From Phycisphaerae bacterium (GTDB taxonomy: Bacteria > Planctomycetota > Phycisphaerae > UBA1845): DNA of 64,000 nt. Shown one piece after another: positions 43,228-50,091 of the stretch (position 1 is the first letter of the stretch; each line of letters starts with the position of its first letter). The DNA is taken from NCBI GenBank assembly GCA_024102815.1, contig JAGFJJ010000031.1, positions 124,001 to 188,000 of the forward strand. The letters run 5' to 3'. The notes beneath the pieces are model-generated. The model saw nothing but the letters and a program-made list of their open reading frames with translations, was not told the DNA's origin and did no database searches. A program made the translations under genes and the position numbers.

Positions 43228-44031
43228 TTGCGAGCCCGCTACGGCAGAATCCTCCTGCGTTTCTGGAAGAACAGCCTCCTTCGAGAGATGAGCTTCCGGG
43301 GTCATTTCCTGGTCAATGCCGCCAGTGAAATCGGCTGGGTTGTCCTCCTGCTGATCTTCGTGAATGTCATTTTCCGGAACACGGCGCATGTGCAGGGCTG
43401 GAGTGAGGGGCAGTACCTGTTCCTTCTGGGAACGCACATGCTCGTAACCAGTTTGTTCGAGACGTTCTTTTTCGGGAATTGTTGGCGCATCAGCCAGCAG
43501 GTACGAACGGGGAACCTCGATTTCGTGCTCGTGCGACCGGCCAATGCCCAGTTTCTCCTGAGTTTCCATCAAGTCGATTATGCAGCGCTGGCCAATGTGC
43601 CGGTGGGAATCGGATTGTGCGTCTATGCGGGATCACTCGTGGGTCGACCGATCACGACCGGGCAAATTGCCATGTTCGCACTCTTGATTGTCGGCGGCGT
43701 GATGATTCTCTATTCCGTATTATTCATGTTCTCGATGACCAGCATCTGGCTGATCCGCCAGACGGGTGTGGATCATCTATGGTTCTATGCCGTCAGCCTG
43801 GCGCGCTATCCCGCGGAGATCTACCAGAGGTTTGCAGGGGGCGTGCTCTGGTTTGCGCTGGTGTTCGTGATTCCCATCCTCATGGTGTCCAATCTGCCGG
43901 CCAATGTCATGGTGCGGACATTCAGTGCCGGGATGGTCGGCTACGTAATGCTCGTGGCGATATTGTTGGTGGGACTTTCGTCGGTGGTGAGTCGTCTGGC
44001 ATTGCGGAAATATCGATCGGCCAGCAGCTAA
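43228..44031 (+). CDS. ABC-2 exporter permease 2 (COG3694 type)
   Basis: This is a 267-residue membrane protein with six helices and the same layout as the preceding permease (VRTGNLDFVLVRPANAQFLLSFHQVDY corresponds to its DIREGELRKYLIQP loop). TTG 43228 is preferred as start because GGGGG lies nine bases upstream and the preceding gene also uses TTG; ATG 43289 would remove the N-terminal amphipathic segment. Its TAA stop shares bases with the TAG stop of the convergent glycosyltransferase. Confidence 0.87.
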   Translation: MRARYGRILLRFWKNSLLREMSFRGHFLVNAASEIGWVVLLLIFVNVIFRNTAHVQGWSEGQYLFLLGTHMLVTSLFETFFFGNCWRISQQVRTGNLDFVLVRPANAQFLLSFHQVDYAALANVPVGIGLCVYAGSLVGRPITTGQIAMFALLIVGGVMILYSVLFMFSMTSIWLIRQTGVDHLWFYAVSLARYPAEIYQRFAGGVLWFALVFVIPILMVSNLPANVMVRTFSAGMVGYVMLVAILLVGLSSVVSRLALRKYRSASS

Positions 44032-45326
44032 TCTCTGACGGAGGCTGCGGCGGTTGAATGCGAGACCGGCTCCGCCTGCCATTCGCTGTCCATCGGCGGG
44101 TGCGGAAGCAGGCCGCGATCGCGAAGCAATTCGACGACACGTGTGATTCGGTGGCTGTAGAGATGTTCGGACAGCGTCCTTCTCTGTCCGGCCAGGGCGA
44201 TCTCCCGTCGGCGCTGCGGATGGGCGAGGTAATACTGGATCTTTTCGAGTAGCTCGGCTTCGCTCCGGAAGACATCACATTCTTCGCCGACCTTGAAACA
44301 CTGGTGCAGCTCCGGTGTCTCGTAGGTCAACATGAAGCCGCCGTTGGCAGTAATCTCGAAATGGCGAATGTTCAATCCGCTTTCCAGGCAGCCCTTCATG
44401 AGATTCAGGCAGATCGGGACACGGCGCATACGCTGGTGCAGGACACTCATGTCCCAGATGCGCGGCGTATGGGGAAGTCCGTAGTACTCTTCCCAGTGAT
44501 CACCAACGAGTTCGAACAGGTCGCCCAACTTGTTCTTGAGAAATCGAGCGAAGCGGTCGCGCTGACGGACCGCGAGATAGGCGTTGTAGGCGAACTTCTG
44601 GCTGAAATACTCAGCGGACTTCCGCACCCGCGCGGCAAAATCCTCCGTTGGCATCGGTGGTGTGGCAAAATCGTGGAGATCGAAATAGATATTGTGGAAA
44701 GCCAGGTCGGGCATATCGGCGCGCACGGCAGCGGCGGTGAGCCCGGCGAACAGGTCTCGGGAGCCGATGGACTGATTGTTGTGGAACCAGGAAGACGCCG
44801 GATGACCCATGAACGCCACCACAGGGCCGGCGTCGGGTTCCGGCGGTGGGCTGGTGTCGTACGGTCGGTTCGCCGCGGCCATGGGAAGCATGAGGACCTG
44901 CGGCACGCCGAGCTTACGCAGCTCGTCGCCATGTGCGGTTTCAAAGATCCATTTGATCCAATCAGGACTCTCGAGCAGCTGCCAGTGATCCGCCCACGGC
45001 ACGCGCTGCATGGTAGACGTAACGGGGTCGAGATAGGAGGCTACGTAGGGAATGCCCATGACGGCCGCGGTCATGGCGAACCGCTCTTTGTCGCCTTCGA
45101 CGGGTACAAGAGTCATGGTCTCGGTGTTGTGATCGAGAAGCATGTCGATGTCATGCTTTTCGAGGAAGGGGCGCAAAACAGCGCCGTCGGCAAGTCGCTG
45201 CGTGAGGGGGCGGTGAAAGTCGAGTCCGGCATCGTCCAGGGGCACGCGGTAGGCTTCGAAGCCGGCCTCGCGTACGGACTGCTCGAGCTGTCCGGTCGTG
45301 GCGATACGCAGCGGACGGCGGACCAT
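44028..45326 (-). CDS. CgeB-like glycosyltransferase 1
   Basis: This is a 432-residue protein of the glycosyl-transferase group 1 / CgeB (PF13524-like) type. The C-terminal GT-B half has GCLESGLNIRHFEITANGGFMLTYETPELHQCF and EECDVFRSEAELLEKIQYYLAHPQRRREIALAGQRRTLSEHLYSHR. The His-Phe-Glu with a later Gly-Gly and a (L/A)(E/D)KIxYYL helix are family marks. ATG 45326 overlaps the stop of the upstream paralogue (TGATG). It is likely a cytoplasmic glycosyltransferase acting on a cell-surface polymer. Donor and acceptor are unknown. The 3' end overlaps the convergent permease stop. Confidence 0.8.
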   Translation of the reverse strand: MVRRPLRIATTGQLEQSVREAGFEAYRVPLDDAGLDFHRPLTQRLADGAVLRPFLEKHDIDMLLDHNTETMTLVPVEGDKERFAMTAAVMGIPYVASYLDPVTSTMQRVPWADHWQLLESPDWIKWIFETAHGDELRKLGVPQVLMLPMAAANRPYDTSPPPEPDAGPVVAFMGHPASSWFHNNQSIGSRDLFAGLTAAAVRADMPDLAFHNIYFDLHDFATPPMPTEDFAARVRKSAEYFSQKFAYNAYLAVRQRDRFARFLKNKLGDLFELVGDHWEEYYGLPHTPRIWDMSVLHQRMRRVPICLNLMKGCLESGLNIRHFEITANGGFMLTYETPELHQCFKVGEECDVFRSEAELLEKIQYYLAHPQRRREIALAGQRRTLSEHLYSHRITRVVELLRDRGLLPHPPMDSEWQAEPVSHSTAAASVRD

Positions 45327-46618
45327 CAACGCCTCTCCATCGCGGGTTCTCGATCGCGAGCGCTTTCGGCATGAGCGTCGCGTCCACCGCCAGACGCGTC
45401 TTCGATGAAGGTAATCAACTTGCGCAGGCGGTGGCTGTAAAGATGTTGCCTCAGCGTGCGGCGCTGTCCGGCCAGGGCGATGTCGGCGCGCTCAGCCGGA
45501 TGAGAGAGATAGTAACCGATCTTCTCCAACAGGTCGGACTCGCCGGTGAATACGGCGCATTCCTTCCCGGGCGTGAAGCACTCACGAAGTTCGGGCTGGT
45601 CGGCGCAGAGCATGAATCCGCCGGAAGCGGTGATTTCGAAGTGCCGCATGTTCAGGCCGGTCTCAGCGTTCCCGTTGACGAAGTTCAGGTTGATGGCGGA
45701 CTGTCGGAAGCTGGCGAGGTATTCATTCGTGGTGGCGTACTGCGAGCGGCACGGAATGCCGTAGGCCTTGTCCCAGCCGGTGCCAACCAAATCGAAGACG
45801 TTCTCGAGTCGCCGCGCCAGGAAGAGGACGTAACGGTCGCGATTCCGCAGGCAGAGCGCGGCGTTGAAGAACAGTTTGGCGTTGTAGAACTGCACGATCT
45901 TCTCCAGCCTGCGGCGAGGCTCGTCATCGGGTTGGGGCGCCTCGCCGAGCGAGAAGAGATCGTGGTAGATTTCGTCGAACGTGTAGGCTCCGAGGTCGCC
46001 TCGGACGGCATGGGCAATCGTTCCGGGAAGCAATGACCCCGTTGGGACGGCGGCATTGGAAGAGAAATAGGTGGTGTTCTGGCCGCCGACAAAGGCGACA
46101 ACGGGGCGCTGCTGGCCGGGGTCGATGGGCGTCGTATCGTAGTCGCGGTCCGGCGCGGCCATCGGCAAATGGCAGACATTGGGCACGCCGAACCGCAAGA
46201 GTTCTCGCGCCTGGGCTTTGTCCCATACGGCCTTGGTCCACGTACCGCTCTGCAGGCACTGCCAGACAGCTGGCCAGGGCAATCCCTGAAAAGTCGTGAC
46301 CAGCGGGTCGATAATGTGCGAAACCAGGCGCTTTCCGCATCGTTCATGGAGGAGCAGGTAGTCATTTTCGCGGTCGGGGTTGGCCGCGAAGGTCAGCCCC
46401 GCGCCGCCGCAATCAAGCAGGAAATCGACCCCTTGCTGCGAAAGCTGCCTGTCGATGGCACTTCCGCGGCCAACCCGGGCCTGAAGGTCAGCGGCATAAA
46501 GGTTGCCTTCGAACAGAGAGTCATCACCGACGATCGCGTGGTCCAAGCTGGCCGCACGGCAGGCGTCGATCCACCATCCGCTTCCAACGCTGAGAACACC
46601 GATTCTTCGCAAGACCAC
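45326..46618 (-). CDS. CgeB-like glycosyltransferase 2
   Basis: This 430-residue paralogue of the downstream gene shares GNAETGLNMRHFEITASGGFMLCADQPELRECFTPGKECAVFTGESDLLEKIGYYLSHPAERADIALAGQRRTLRQHLYSHRL, almost co-linear with the neighbour. The pair therefore came from tandem duplication and has since diverged (the N-terminal halves differ strongly). The start is GTG 46618 or TTG 46612, both just after GGGAGG. The longer frame to 46723 lacks a ribosome-binding site. The two are translationally coupled. Confidence 0.78.
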   Translation of the reverse strand: MVLRRIGVLSVGSGWWIDACRAASLDHAIVGDDSLFEGNLYAADLQARVGRGSAIDRQLSQQGVDFLLDCGGAGLTFAANPDRENDYLLLHERCGKRLVSHIIDPLVTTFQGLPWPAVWQCLQSGTWTKAVWDKAQARELLRFGVPNVCHLPMAAPDRDYDTTPIDPGQQRPVVAFVGGQNTTYFSSNAAVPTGSLLPGTIAHAVRGDLGAYTFDEIYHDLFSLGEAPQPDDEPRRRLEKIVQFYNAKLFFNAALCLRNRDRYVLFLARRLENVFDLVGTGWDKAYGIPCRSQYATTNEYLASFRQSAINLNFVNGNAETGLNMRHFEITASGGFMLCADQPELRECFTPGKECAVFTGESDLLEKIGYYLSHPAERADIALAGQRRTLRQHLYSHRLRKLITFIEDASGGGRDAHAESARDREPAMERR

Positions 46619-46764
46619 GCCCTCCCGCTCGAAACTCGCGACCCTTCGCACACAACGCAGCGTCGACCGAGTTGGGTACCCACGAGGGTTATCGGCCTCG
46701 GTGGGAGGACCGGTTGACCGCAATCGGCGGATTCGCCGTGGTTCGTTCGGATGTGCGACGAGTC

Positions 46765-48150
46765 TCAGTCGTTTTCCGAAGCTGATGTGGCCGGTCCGGA
46801 TTCGGCGCCGCCTGGTTCACTCTTTGCGGAGGCCAGTTGTTGCGTGACACGTTCCGCGTCACCGCCGATGGTCTCTTCGAGGTAGATCTCCCCGAGGTCG
46901 ACCTTGTCCACATCGCGGCGAAGGAGGAAGTAGAGAATCGTGGCGCTGCAAAAATAGAACGAGATCAGAAACGAGAACATAAGTCCAATGACCAGAAGCA
47001 CGGTCAGGCCGATGAAGAATGCGGAGATGTACTCGTACCAAGCGAGATGGCTGCCTTCCGGCCATGTATAGAGCGCGCTCGGTCCCTTTAGACTCCACAG
47101 CAGATCAAGCTTGTTGGCGGGCTCGACGACGGTTCCCCGTTCCCACCATGAGGCACCGAAGTGGATGACTTCGTGGCTGATATACAGCGCCAAATAGGTG
47201 AAAAGGTTGATGAACACCCAGCAGAAACTGGCGAGGACGAGGGCGATAATTGCGTAAATCGCCGTTTTCCACACGCGGGTGAAGGCATAGTTGAGGGCGC
47301 GGGCGAATGCGTCCAGGGCATCCTGGCCCTCCGCGGCAACTGCCGGCCACATGAGGTGTCCCCCGACGAGCAATCCGATAATCAGTGTGGCTACTGCAAA
47401 GCCCGCCAGAATGGCAACAGGAAAAAAAACGCCGGCGAGCACATCCCCGATGAAGGGCAATCGAAGTACGGCACCGAAGATCGCCAGCGTGATCACGCCC
47501 AGGAGGGCGAAGAAGAGCGGCACGCACGGTGCGAGGATGAACCCGTTGAAGAGGTGCCGCTGCGCGTAGGCAATTCCCTGCGAAGCGGTGAGCTTATCGT
47601 CCTGGGCGAATTGAACGGCGGCAAGCCGGCAGATGGCGCCGCCGCCCCAACTCCAGAGTACGAGACAGCCTGCCCAGAAGATCAGGAAGAAGGCGGGATG
47701 TTGGTCCCACATCCACCAGATTCCAACGCCAAGTGAGGCAATGTTGCGAAGCGGCCCCCGCTGGGCGTGGTAGGCGAAGTACTCCCCAAGCGGCGTCCCC
47801 TCGGCAACCGATGCGCCGGGGATGGACGATGTGAACAGTCCGAAAATCTTCCGTTGCGTGTGCTCACGCCAGACCTCGAACACGCCGGCATTGCCCGGCT
47901 GGCTCTCGTACTCGGTGCCCAATTCCTTGGAGGCGATGAAGCGGTCGACGGCCGCGCTGTCCACGCCGCCGCGGATGGCCCACAGGGCGTCGAGGAGGCT
48001 GCCGAACAGAAAGGTCAGGATCAGTGTGAGCAGGGCGAGCCCCAGCTTTCCGGGTTGGAGCGAGAGCCCAATAGCCCTAAATATGTGCAGCAAACCCGTC
48101 TGTTCGAGCCAGCCGCCGGAGTTCGTTGCGTGTTCCGATGCCTGCGACAT
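46765..48150 (-). CDS. Multi-pass membrane protein of unknown function
   Basis: This 461-residue protein has about seven hydrophobic segments (near residues 33-60, 150-180, 190-215, 235-290, 320-350 and 395-430) and a soluble insertion (about 65-140). The C-terminus is a charged, Ser/Glu-rich cytoplasmic tail (VDKVDLGEIYLEETIGGDAERVTQQLASAK). ATG 48150 (MSQASEHATNSGG) has a modest GAGG upstream. No family was recognised; similar long membrane proteins are frequent in planctomycetes. It stands alone. Confidence 0.65.
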   Translation of the reverse strand: MSQASEHATNSGGWLEQTGLLHIFRAIGLSLQPGKLGLALLTLILTFLFGSLLDALWAIRGGVDSAAVDRFIASKELGTEYESQPGNAGVFEVWREHTQRKIFGLFTSSIPGASVAEGTPLGEYFAYHAQRGPLRNIASLGVGIWWMWDQHPAFFLIFWAGCLVLWSWGGGAICRLAAVQFAQDDKLTASQGIAYAQRHLFNGFILAPCVPLFFALLGVITLAIFGAVLRLPFIGDVLAGVFFPVAILAGFAVATLIIGLLVGGHLMWPAVAAEGQDALDAFARALNYAFTRVWKTAIYAIIALVLASFCWVFINLFTYLALYISHEVIHFGASWWERGTVVEPANKLDLLWSLKGPSALYTWPEGSHLAWYEYISAFFIGLTVLLVIGLMFSFLISFYFCSATILYFLLRRDVDKVDLGEIYLEETIGGDAERVTQQLASAKSEPGGAESGPATSASEND

Positions 48151-48510
48151 GAGAAGGCCTCGCGAGAGAACGGTTGCTTTCGAAACTGCCGGGTTCGGCC
48201 GGTTGATTCCCACCTGATACACTCGGCCGCCCGATCGGGCGGCATTATAGGCCGCAGAGTTTGACGGGCCAGACTCCGACAGGGTGGCTCGACATCCCCT
48301 GGATGGTCCCCGCCTGTTCGGTGAACACAAACGTTTGCCATCGTGAAGATTAGGCCACGCGCGGCGGATCGCACGCGGGGGGCGATTTTGCCGCAATGTG
48401 CCCCCGAAGAGAGATCAAGTTCCGCAGCAGAAAATGACGAAATCGTTAAGAGTGGAGTCCCGGTCGGCAGCAAAAAACGTCCGTTTTTCTTTCTGCCCGA
48501 CCGGTGCGAG

Positions 48511-48519
48511 TGATATAAT
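48511..48519 (+). promoter_or_regulatory. Extended -10 promoter of the structured RNA
   Basis: TGATATAAT is a perfect extended -10 (TGn-TATAAT). Transcription would begin around 48524-48527, exactly where the closing stem of the RNA candidate begins. No strong -35 is needed for this promoter type. Confidence 0.6.
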
Positions 48520-48523
48520 GATT

Positions 48524-48769
48524 CGGTCTGATCGGAGCGGCTTTCATGCTCGACCGAGGGCATTCATTGGCCGAACCGATGCGGAACCCAAGGGCGACAA
48601 TACGACGGTCATCAACGACGTACCGGTCCCTTTGAGACTGGCGGTCCGCGACCCGTGACGCCGCCCACCTTAGCGAAGGGTTCTGCCAACCGCCCTTACC
48701 GGCATTACGACGGTTGCCCGTTCGGACTGCAAGAGAGCCTGTGCCCCCTCGGCGCAGGCTCGTTTTTTT
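48524..48769 (+). ncRNA. Structured RNA candidate with 6S-like rod fold and terminator
   Basis: The region is non-coding and folds as one long irregular hairpin of about 205 bases. The 5' end 48524-48535 pairs with 48718-48729 (11 of 12 positions, counting G-U). Then 48551-48556 pairs with 48711-48716, 48570-48573 with 48700-48703, 48590-48596 perfectly with 48691-48697, and 48628-48634 with 48674-48680. An inner GGCGG/CCGCC arm (48640-48644 / 48661-48665) completes it. A strong promoter stands at its 5' edge and a strong intrinsic terminator at its 3' edge. Size, closing of both ends and interrupted rod shape are those of 6S RNA, but no conserved primary sequence could be checked. It may instead be an attenuated leader of the GlmU-like gene 104 bases downstream. 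Confidence 0.55.
48735..48769 (+). terminator. Strong intrinsic terminator
   Basis: GAGCCTGTGC (48735-48744) and GCGCAGGCTC (48752-48761) pair at all 10 positions (one G-U) around a 7-base loop, followed by G and seven T. It ends the structured RNA upstream of the GlmU-like gene. Confidence 0.9.
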
Positions 48770-48873: not shown

Positions 48874-50091
48874 ATGAGCGAACTCATTCTCTTTGAAGAT
48901 CACGGCTGGAAACAACTTCTCCCGCTGACGTATTGGCGGTCCCTCTTCGAGTTGCGCGTGGGACGCAAGATCATCCTGGATCGGACCGCCCAGCAACTCG
49001 GACAAGCCGTCGCCGGTATTTGGTGCCGGCCATGGATGGCGAATGTCGCTCGGCAGCGGTGCGGCGCGCCGGCCAATAGTCCCGCATCCGGCGGCACGAT
49101 ACTCGTTAATGCGCGCTGGTTGTTCGACGGTACTGGCTCGCTTCCGCAGCCACCATGCGTGGGGATGGTCGACGGCGAGATCGCCGTCGTCTCCTGTGAC
49201 GAGGCCTTGGCGTCGCGGCTCAGCGCCGAGACGCTCCTCGATCCCGGGACGTCGGGTGAGGCCCTCGCCAAAGTGCCGCGCGTTTCATTGCAGGGGCAGA
49301 TGATTCGATTCCCCTGGGATTTGATTCGCGACGTAGGCCGCCTGATCGAAGGGGACTGGCACGAAGGTGACGCGCTGATCGACGGCGAAGTCGATCCCGC
49401 GTCGATGGATAATCCCGCACGTCTGCATGTCGGGCAACGGAGTCATGTGCACCGAACGGCCGTGCTGGACTCGACGGGGGGCCCCATCTACCTGAGCCAC
49501 GACGTACACGTCGGAGCGCTGGCTGTGCTCCAGGGCCCGTTGTACGTCGGTCCGGGCACGCGCGTCCATCCACGCGCGTACCTCCACGGAGGAAATGCCA
49601 TCGGACCGGTCTGTCGCATCGCCGGCGAGGTACACGGCTGCGTCATCGACGGCTACAGCAACAAGCAGCACGAAGGCTTCCTCGGGCATTCGTACGTGGG
49701 CAGCTGGGTCAATCTCGGCGCAGGGTGCACGAATTCTGATTTGAAGAATACGTACGGATCGGTTCGCGTCCGGCTGCCGATCGGCGAGGCGGATACCGGC
49801 GAGACGTTCCTCGGCTCGATCATCGGCGACCACGCCAAAGTGGGCATCAACGCCAGTCTGCCGACCGGCTGCGTGATCGGCATGGCCGCCTGCGTGGCGA
49901 CGACGCGCCTGGTTCCGTCATTCGTACCTTCGTTCGGATGGCTGGCGGAGGAGGGCCTGCGCGCGGGCGACGTCGAGAAACTGCTGGACGTGGCCACCAG
50001 GGTCATGGCCCGCCGCGACGTGGACATGACCGACGAGGAAGTCGAGTACTTTCTTGAACTCGGGCGGCGCTGTCGCGAACTGGAGTCCTAG
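48874..50091 (+). CDS. GlmU-like sugar-phosphate nucleotidyltransferase/acyltransferase
   Basis: This is a 405-residue protein with an N-terminal nucleotidyltransferase-like domain (LILFEDHGWKQLLPLTYWRSLFELRVGRKIILDR) that differs from classical GlmU, and a C-terminal left-handed beta-helix (about residues 190-340). The helix segment includes GEVHGCVIDGYSNKQHEGFLGHSYVGSWVNLGAGCTNSDLKNTYGSV, matching the alternative bacterial GlmU family described in Bacteroidetes and Planctomycetes (TIGR03991 as I recall it). It would make UDP-N-acetylglucosamine for the cell envelope. ATG 48874 has a weak ribosome-binding site. A terminated RNA lies upstream. Confidence 0.85.
   Translation: MSELILFEDHGWKQLLPLTYWRSLFELRVGRKIILDRTAQQLGQAVAGIWCRPWMANVARQRCGAPANSPASGGTILVNARWLFDGTGSLPQPPCVGMVDGEIAVVSCDEALASRLSAETLLDPGTSGEALAKVPRVSLQGQMIRFPWDLIRDVGRLIEGDWHEGDALIDGEVDPASMDNPARLHVGQRSHVHRTAVLDSTGGPIYLSHDVHVGALAVLQGPLYVGPGTRVHPRAYLHGGNAIGPVCRIAGEVHGCVIDGYSNKQHEGFLGHSYVGSWVNLGAGCTNSDLKNTYGSVRVRLPIGEADTGETFLGSIIGDHAKVGINASLPTGCVIGMAACVATTRLVPSFVPSFGWLAEEGLRAGDVEKLLDVATRVMARRDVDMTDEEVEYFLELGRRCRELES

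Follow-up and report, generated by a model that had tools for sequence, protein, structure and literature searches.

The question raised by this locus is what kind of RNA is encoded by the short stretch that lies in the window (the whole 64 kb of DNA that was analysed) between a minus-strand ORF at 46765-48396, the start of which is uncertain, and the glmU gene at 48874. The original prediction had read it, from its shape, as a possible 6S RNA, or failing that as a leader or small RNA of a new kind placed before a GlmU-like gene. In a 6S RNA a bubble imitates an open promoter and serves the polymerase as template for a short pRNA, whose synthesis begins at U44 in E. coli; refolding of the RNA afterwards releases the polymerase (PMC8876501). 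The comparative evidence set out below makes it nearly certain that what is encoded is the 6S RNA of this planctomycete, and that the locus is its ssrS gene: a known kind of RNA that has been overlooked here.

Layout of the gene and fold of the RNA

The elements of the gene are the following, R1 and R2 being covariance models defined in the next section.

48495..48500, + strand: weak -35-like region, approximate (TT some 22-23 bases before the -10 hexamer)
48511..48519, + strand: extended -10 promoter of the 6S gene, TGATATAAT (sequence; conservation in 28 sequences)
48525..48731, + strand: 6S RNA body, a rod with a central bubble (R1, 166.8 bits; R2, 90.2 bits, E 2e-19)
48735..48769, + strand: intrinsic terminator, an 11-pair stem and then seven T (sequence; stem kept in the first relatives aligned)

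The extended -10 that had been proposed can be read directly in the sequence, and it is conserved in the 28 sequences of the window's group: 22 of them have an exact TATAAT, all 28 have the G of the extended -10 TG, and the distance from this element to the RNA core is near-fixed. A consensus scan returned no sigma-70 hexamer pair at the locus; the upstream TT at -23/-22 occurs in 27/28 and 26/28 of the group sequences, respectively. The 5' end of the RNA is deduced from the promoter, at about six bases past the -10, and the body of about 205 nt that follows closes on itself, its two ends pairing as claimed. The terminator is likewise real and has its seven T, but its stem (48735-48761, followed by GTTTTTTT) consists of 11 pairs rather than the ten originally stated. 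On these sequence features the locus appears to be a stand-alone gene with its own conserved promoter and terminator.

The RNA together with its terminator folds at -108 kcal/mol compared with -90.9 +/- 4.8 kcal/mol for shuffled sequences, a difference of 3.6 standard deviations, and one shuffle in 200 folds as stably. The comparative structure derived from the 28 sequences is a single unbranched rod in which a closing stem of about 52 nt per strand leads through a 14 x 12-nt central bubble into an apical stem of 75 nt.

48526..48577, + strand: closing stem, 5' strand, with GAACC at its end, 48573-48577 (consensus structure, pair counts)
48578..48591, + strand: central bubble, 5' strand, GATGCGGAACCCAA (comparative structure)
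48592..48666, + strand: apical (upstream-DNA-like) stem, GGGCG...GCCGCCC (covarying helices 8-10)
48614..48647, + strand: apical hairpin, AACGACGTACCGG...GGCGGTCC (almost without variation in the 28-sequence alignment)
48667..48678, + strand: central bubble, 3' strand, ACCTTAGCGAAG (small CCUU/AAGG hairpin possible)
48679..48727, + strand: closing stem, 3' strand (comparative structure)

Over the 53 pairs of this structure 89.2% of cells in the 28 sequences are paired, compared with only 31-49% when the partners are slid, a control that favours the structure because it was fitted partly on the same sequences. The compensatory changes in relatives that the original prediction required are present: 25 of the 53 pairs contain double changes, which amount to 108 cells where shuffles give 44.5, and none of 500 shuffles reaches the observed value on any of the five measures used. 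The inner stems depart slightly from the four nested ones of that prediction, and the branched apex obtained when a single sequence is folded is absent from the comparative rod. RNAalifold applied to nine sequences also gave a branched apex, along with a wrong inner helix, and was set aside since GGGAGGC/GCCACCC covary. Despite its distance from the bubble, the apical hairpin at 48614-48647 is the most conserved part of the RNA in the group, and pairing in its helices 11 and 12 reaches 100% of cells.

Evidence linking the RNA to 6S genes

A 6S RNA is expected to be a rod of about 180-200 nt with a large central bubble, and what is found here is a rod of about 205 nt with a bubble of 14 + 12 nt. 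The Rfam model of 6S RNA, RF00013, finds no match in the window or in the genome to which it belongs, even at E<=10, and a search of the window with the whole of Rfam, at gathering cut-offs and at E<=10, returns only matches at chance level (Thr_leader at the terminator, with 21.1 bits against a gathering score of 55, and WT1-AS_4 on the other strand). No tRNA or tmRNA was found when the window was scanned for them, and none of the motifs of SRP RNA, RNase P RNA or tmRNA was noticed in this RNA. Taken alone, the blank result of RF00013 on the window would have pointed away from 6S RNA; it reflects a limit of the model rather than a biological criterion. The covariance search that had been suggested thus comes out differently for the window sequence and for its orthologues in the same family: among 40 relatives RF00013 matches 30 at E<=10, 12 of them over its cut-off, and in the window's family it marks the same places as R1 (for example G022:C81, G006:C91, G016:C761, G010:C48, G015:C45 and G021:C100). 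By this comparison the window copy is among the more divergent 6S copies of its family.

R1 is a covariance model built from the 28 non-redundant aligned sequences of the group. Applied to 20 kb of E. coli DNA, it gives ssrS as the top match, with 33.1 bits and E 3e-7, and the next match has 7.8 bits. It matches 44 of 392 genomes of the phylum, at one locus per genome and nearly always over its full length, and RF00013 marks the same stretch in all 20 of the R1 loci tested elsewhere in the phylum, 13 of them over the gathering score. The reverse search uses R2, a model built from 29 other Planctomycetota loci and E. coli ssrS with none of the 28 group sequences included, and its sole match in the 64 kb is the RNA body itself. 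The members of R2 were gathered with R1, so the two tests are not wholly independent of one another; RF00013 itself recognises the 20 tested loci.

The identification as 6S RNA follows from the detection of E. coli ssrS by R1, the detection of the window by R2, the matches of RF00013 to orthologues, and the alignment of the bubble with that of E. coli, which is described below; the reading originally made from shape is in this way borne out by searches that connect the RNA with accepted 6S genes from either side. A new family of trans-acting RNA with no relation to 6S could account for the absence of an Rfam match and for the invariant apical hairpin, AACGACGUACYG..GGCGGUC, but it is contradicted by the tests with R1, R2 and RF00013, so that at the level of homology it is already refuted and its probability is close to nil.

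Predicted pRNA start and release switch

The window RNA resembles E. coli ssrS in length, in having a rod with a central bubble and in being present as a single copy, and it has in common with it the bubble motif GA(A/G)CCGAU with the U44 start and the conserved segments GGGUUC and CGGCAU on the 3' side. The counterpart of GAACCGAU (48573-48580) in the alignment with E. coli is GAGCCGAU, the last U of which is U44. The positions on which the predicted function depends are as follows.

48580, + strand: predicted template U of the pRNA start, equivalent to E. coli U44 (inferred by alignment with E. coli ssrS)
48581..48589, + strand: predicted central bubble collapse helix, 5' arm, GCGGAACCC (partner 48678-48686; duplex and permutation test)
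48678..48686, + strand: 3' arm used by both closing stem and collapse helix, GGGTTCTGC (structure; duplex test)

The column of U48580 contains U in 24 of the 28 sequences and A in the other 4, the start being placed by alignment alone. The predicted pRNA, 5'-AUCGGUUCGGCCAAU, would be copied from the template at 48580 down to 48566; antisense to 48566-48580, it would begin AUCGGUUC.. and hence with A. The E. coli pRNA also begins with A, that of B. subtilis 6S-1 with G at C40 (PMC8876501).

In the 5' strand of the bubble the stem strand occurs a second time, as GGAACCC, and this copy is able to pair with the GGGUUC of the 3' stem strand that is otherwise paired to GAACC at rest. This second copy is present in all 28 group sequences. 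When each 5' arm is paired with the 3' arm of its own sequence, the energy of the collapse helix is -12.2 kcal/mol, compared with -10.1 +/- 0.35 kcal/mol when the strands are dealt among the sequences, and none of 20000 permutations reaches the matched value, with the same result after the removal of close relatives; finer relatedness does not enter into the permutation, and the energies refer to isolated strands. Matched changes occur as UUCGC/GCGAA (L009, L015), UUUCG/CGAAA (L014, L026) and UUCUG/CAGAA (L018), and both of the alternative helices covary.

In E. coli the alternative pairing is a hairpin within the 3' strand of the bubble, and the relative strengths are reversed there: in the E. 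coli control the collapse helix has -3.1 and the hairpin -13.4 kcal/mol, while in the window RNA an E. coli-type hairpin is missing (-2.8 kcal/mol). The collapse helix is the stronger of the two in 28 of the 28 group sequences, and the hairpin is the stronger in 18 of 30 comparison sequences, E. coli among them. The pairing predicted to bring about release is, on the sequence evidence, the central bubble collapse helix. A helix of this kind has been inferred for B. subtilis and A. aeolicus (PMC8876501), and by the description given there B. subtilis 6S-1 and A. aeolicus 6S are like the window RNA both in this pairing of the 3' closing-stem strand with the distal 5' bubble and in a small hairpin formed by the 3' strand of the bubble, although their sequences differ from it.

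By analogy with E. coli and B. subtilis, from which polymerase binding, pRNA synthesis, release and a growth-phase role are inferred, the RNA would work in the following way. The rod with its central bubble would mimic an open promoter and bind the RNA polymerase holoenzyme with the housekeeping sigma factor, and the bound polymerase would be unavailable to genuine promoters, most probably in periods of slowing growth. Once nutrients returned, the polymerase would copy the bubble from U48580, and the synthesis of the short pRNA would unzip the upper part of the closing stem and free GGGUUCUGC (48678-48686), which could then pair with GCGGAACCC to collapse the bubble and release the polymerase.

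The Ms1 RNA of Actinobacteria also has a 6S-like shape with a bubble, and it binds the core polymerase without sigma. It was first predicted to be a 6S RNA from its shape, and experiment alone proved otherwise (PMC9130861), so the window RNA might in principle be another such RNA, without a pRNA. However, mycobacterial Ms1 is longer, at about 300 nt, and has extra hairpins at its ends (PMC9130861), whereas the window RNA of about 205 nt has none and its ends close on each other; the sequence homology to 6S RNA at the pRNA start and the conserved collapse helix are further arguments against an Ms1-like RNA, which is thus very improbable.

For a 6S RNA, the comparison can be extended to other Planctomycetota, in which R1, R2 and RF00013 mark the same gene. 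Many of these have an E. coli-type hairpin, CUGAGCC/GGGUUCAG, whereas the window group has the collapse helix throughout and its own invariant apical hairpin. At eight loci (L040, L051, L055, L057, L059, L060, L061 and L066) a hairpin of approximately this form, at -10 to -12 kcal/mol, replaces the collapse helix. Judged by the predicted pairings, two designs of release switch appear to coexist in the phylum, so that comparison between them can be used to test how release from 6S RNA evolved. A tentative extension, which we consider possible but rather doubtful as a whole, is that the window group is a distinct 6S subtype in which a 5'-bubble collapse helix took over the release switch from the E. 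coli-type 3'-bubble hairpin, with no change in the shared GGGUUC strand, and in which the apical hairpin gained a specific contact not made by other 6S RNAs, be it with polymerase, with sigma or with some other partner.

Distribution and genomic neighbourhood

A DNA search matches 9 of 40 related genomes, the window's own included, and a pattern of the conserved core has 27 matches in the GTDB genome collection; of these, 26 are titled Planctomycetota or Phycisphaerae and one only 'bacterium'. To judge from these matches, a rod-shaped RNA of about 205 nt is kept across Phycisphaerae-type Planctomycetota. Under strict filters RF00013 marks 129 and R2 marks 134 of 294 sampled genomes of the phylum, so that 6S RNA is present in at least 44-46% of them; the sampled genomes are mostly metagenome assemblies, and absences are therefore weak evidence. 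A 2014 screen, as it is cited in PMC5673643, found 6S RNA to be absent from Pirellula and Rhodopirellula, and PMC5673643 likewise inferred its absence from Thermogutta. Given the proportion of genomes in which it is detected here, and the recovery of a group which is partly invisible to RF00013, an apparent absence of 6S RNA at the level of the phylum can reflect model sensitivity.

The neighbour downstream lies outside the RNA.

48874..50091, + strand: alternative bacterial glmU, TIGR03991 (321.8 bits, cut-off 225.3)

Among related loci, 44 have a glmU of this kind downstream in the same orientation, a count that includes some genomes twice, and in 43 of these its distance from the RNA core is no more than about 450 bases. 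The RNA could then be read as a leader that acts in cis on the glmU-like gene, as a riboswitch or an attenuator, with the terminator in between as the other point in favour of this reading. It is opposed by the homology to 6S RNA, by 6S relatives that have no adjoining glmU, by locus L035, where glmU is 4 kb away, and by the absence of any substantial Rfam leader match, Thr_leader scoring well under its gathering score. The leader proposed as an alternative in the original prediction is unneeded, since the RNA has its own terminator and is explained by 6S homology, and we give it hardly any credence.

Across much of the order glmU follows the 6S gene closely, whereas in E. coli the neighbour of ssrS is fau. 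Conserved co-expression of 6S RNA and glmU, comparable to that of ssrS-fau in E. coli, is possible.

At 44028-46723 there are two adjoining minus-strand ORFs of 433 and 465 amino acids whose C-terminal halves are alike, with common motifs such as LNxxxGxxETGLNxRHFEITAxGGFML and an ending near AGQRRTLxEHLYSHR; the two look as if they had arisen by tandem duplication. Relatives of the second ORF are found near the 6S gene at the loci L014, L031, L032 and L033.
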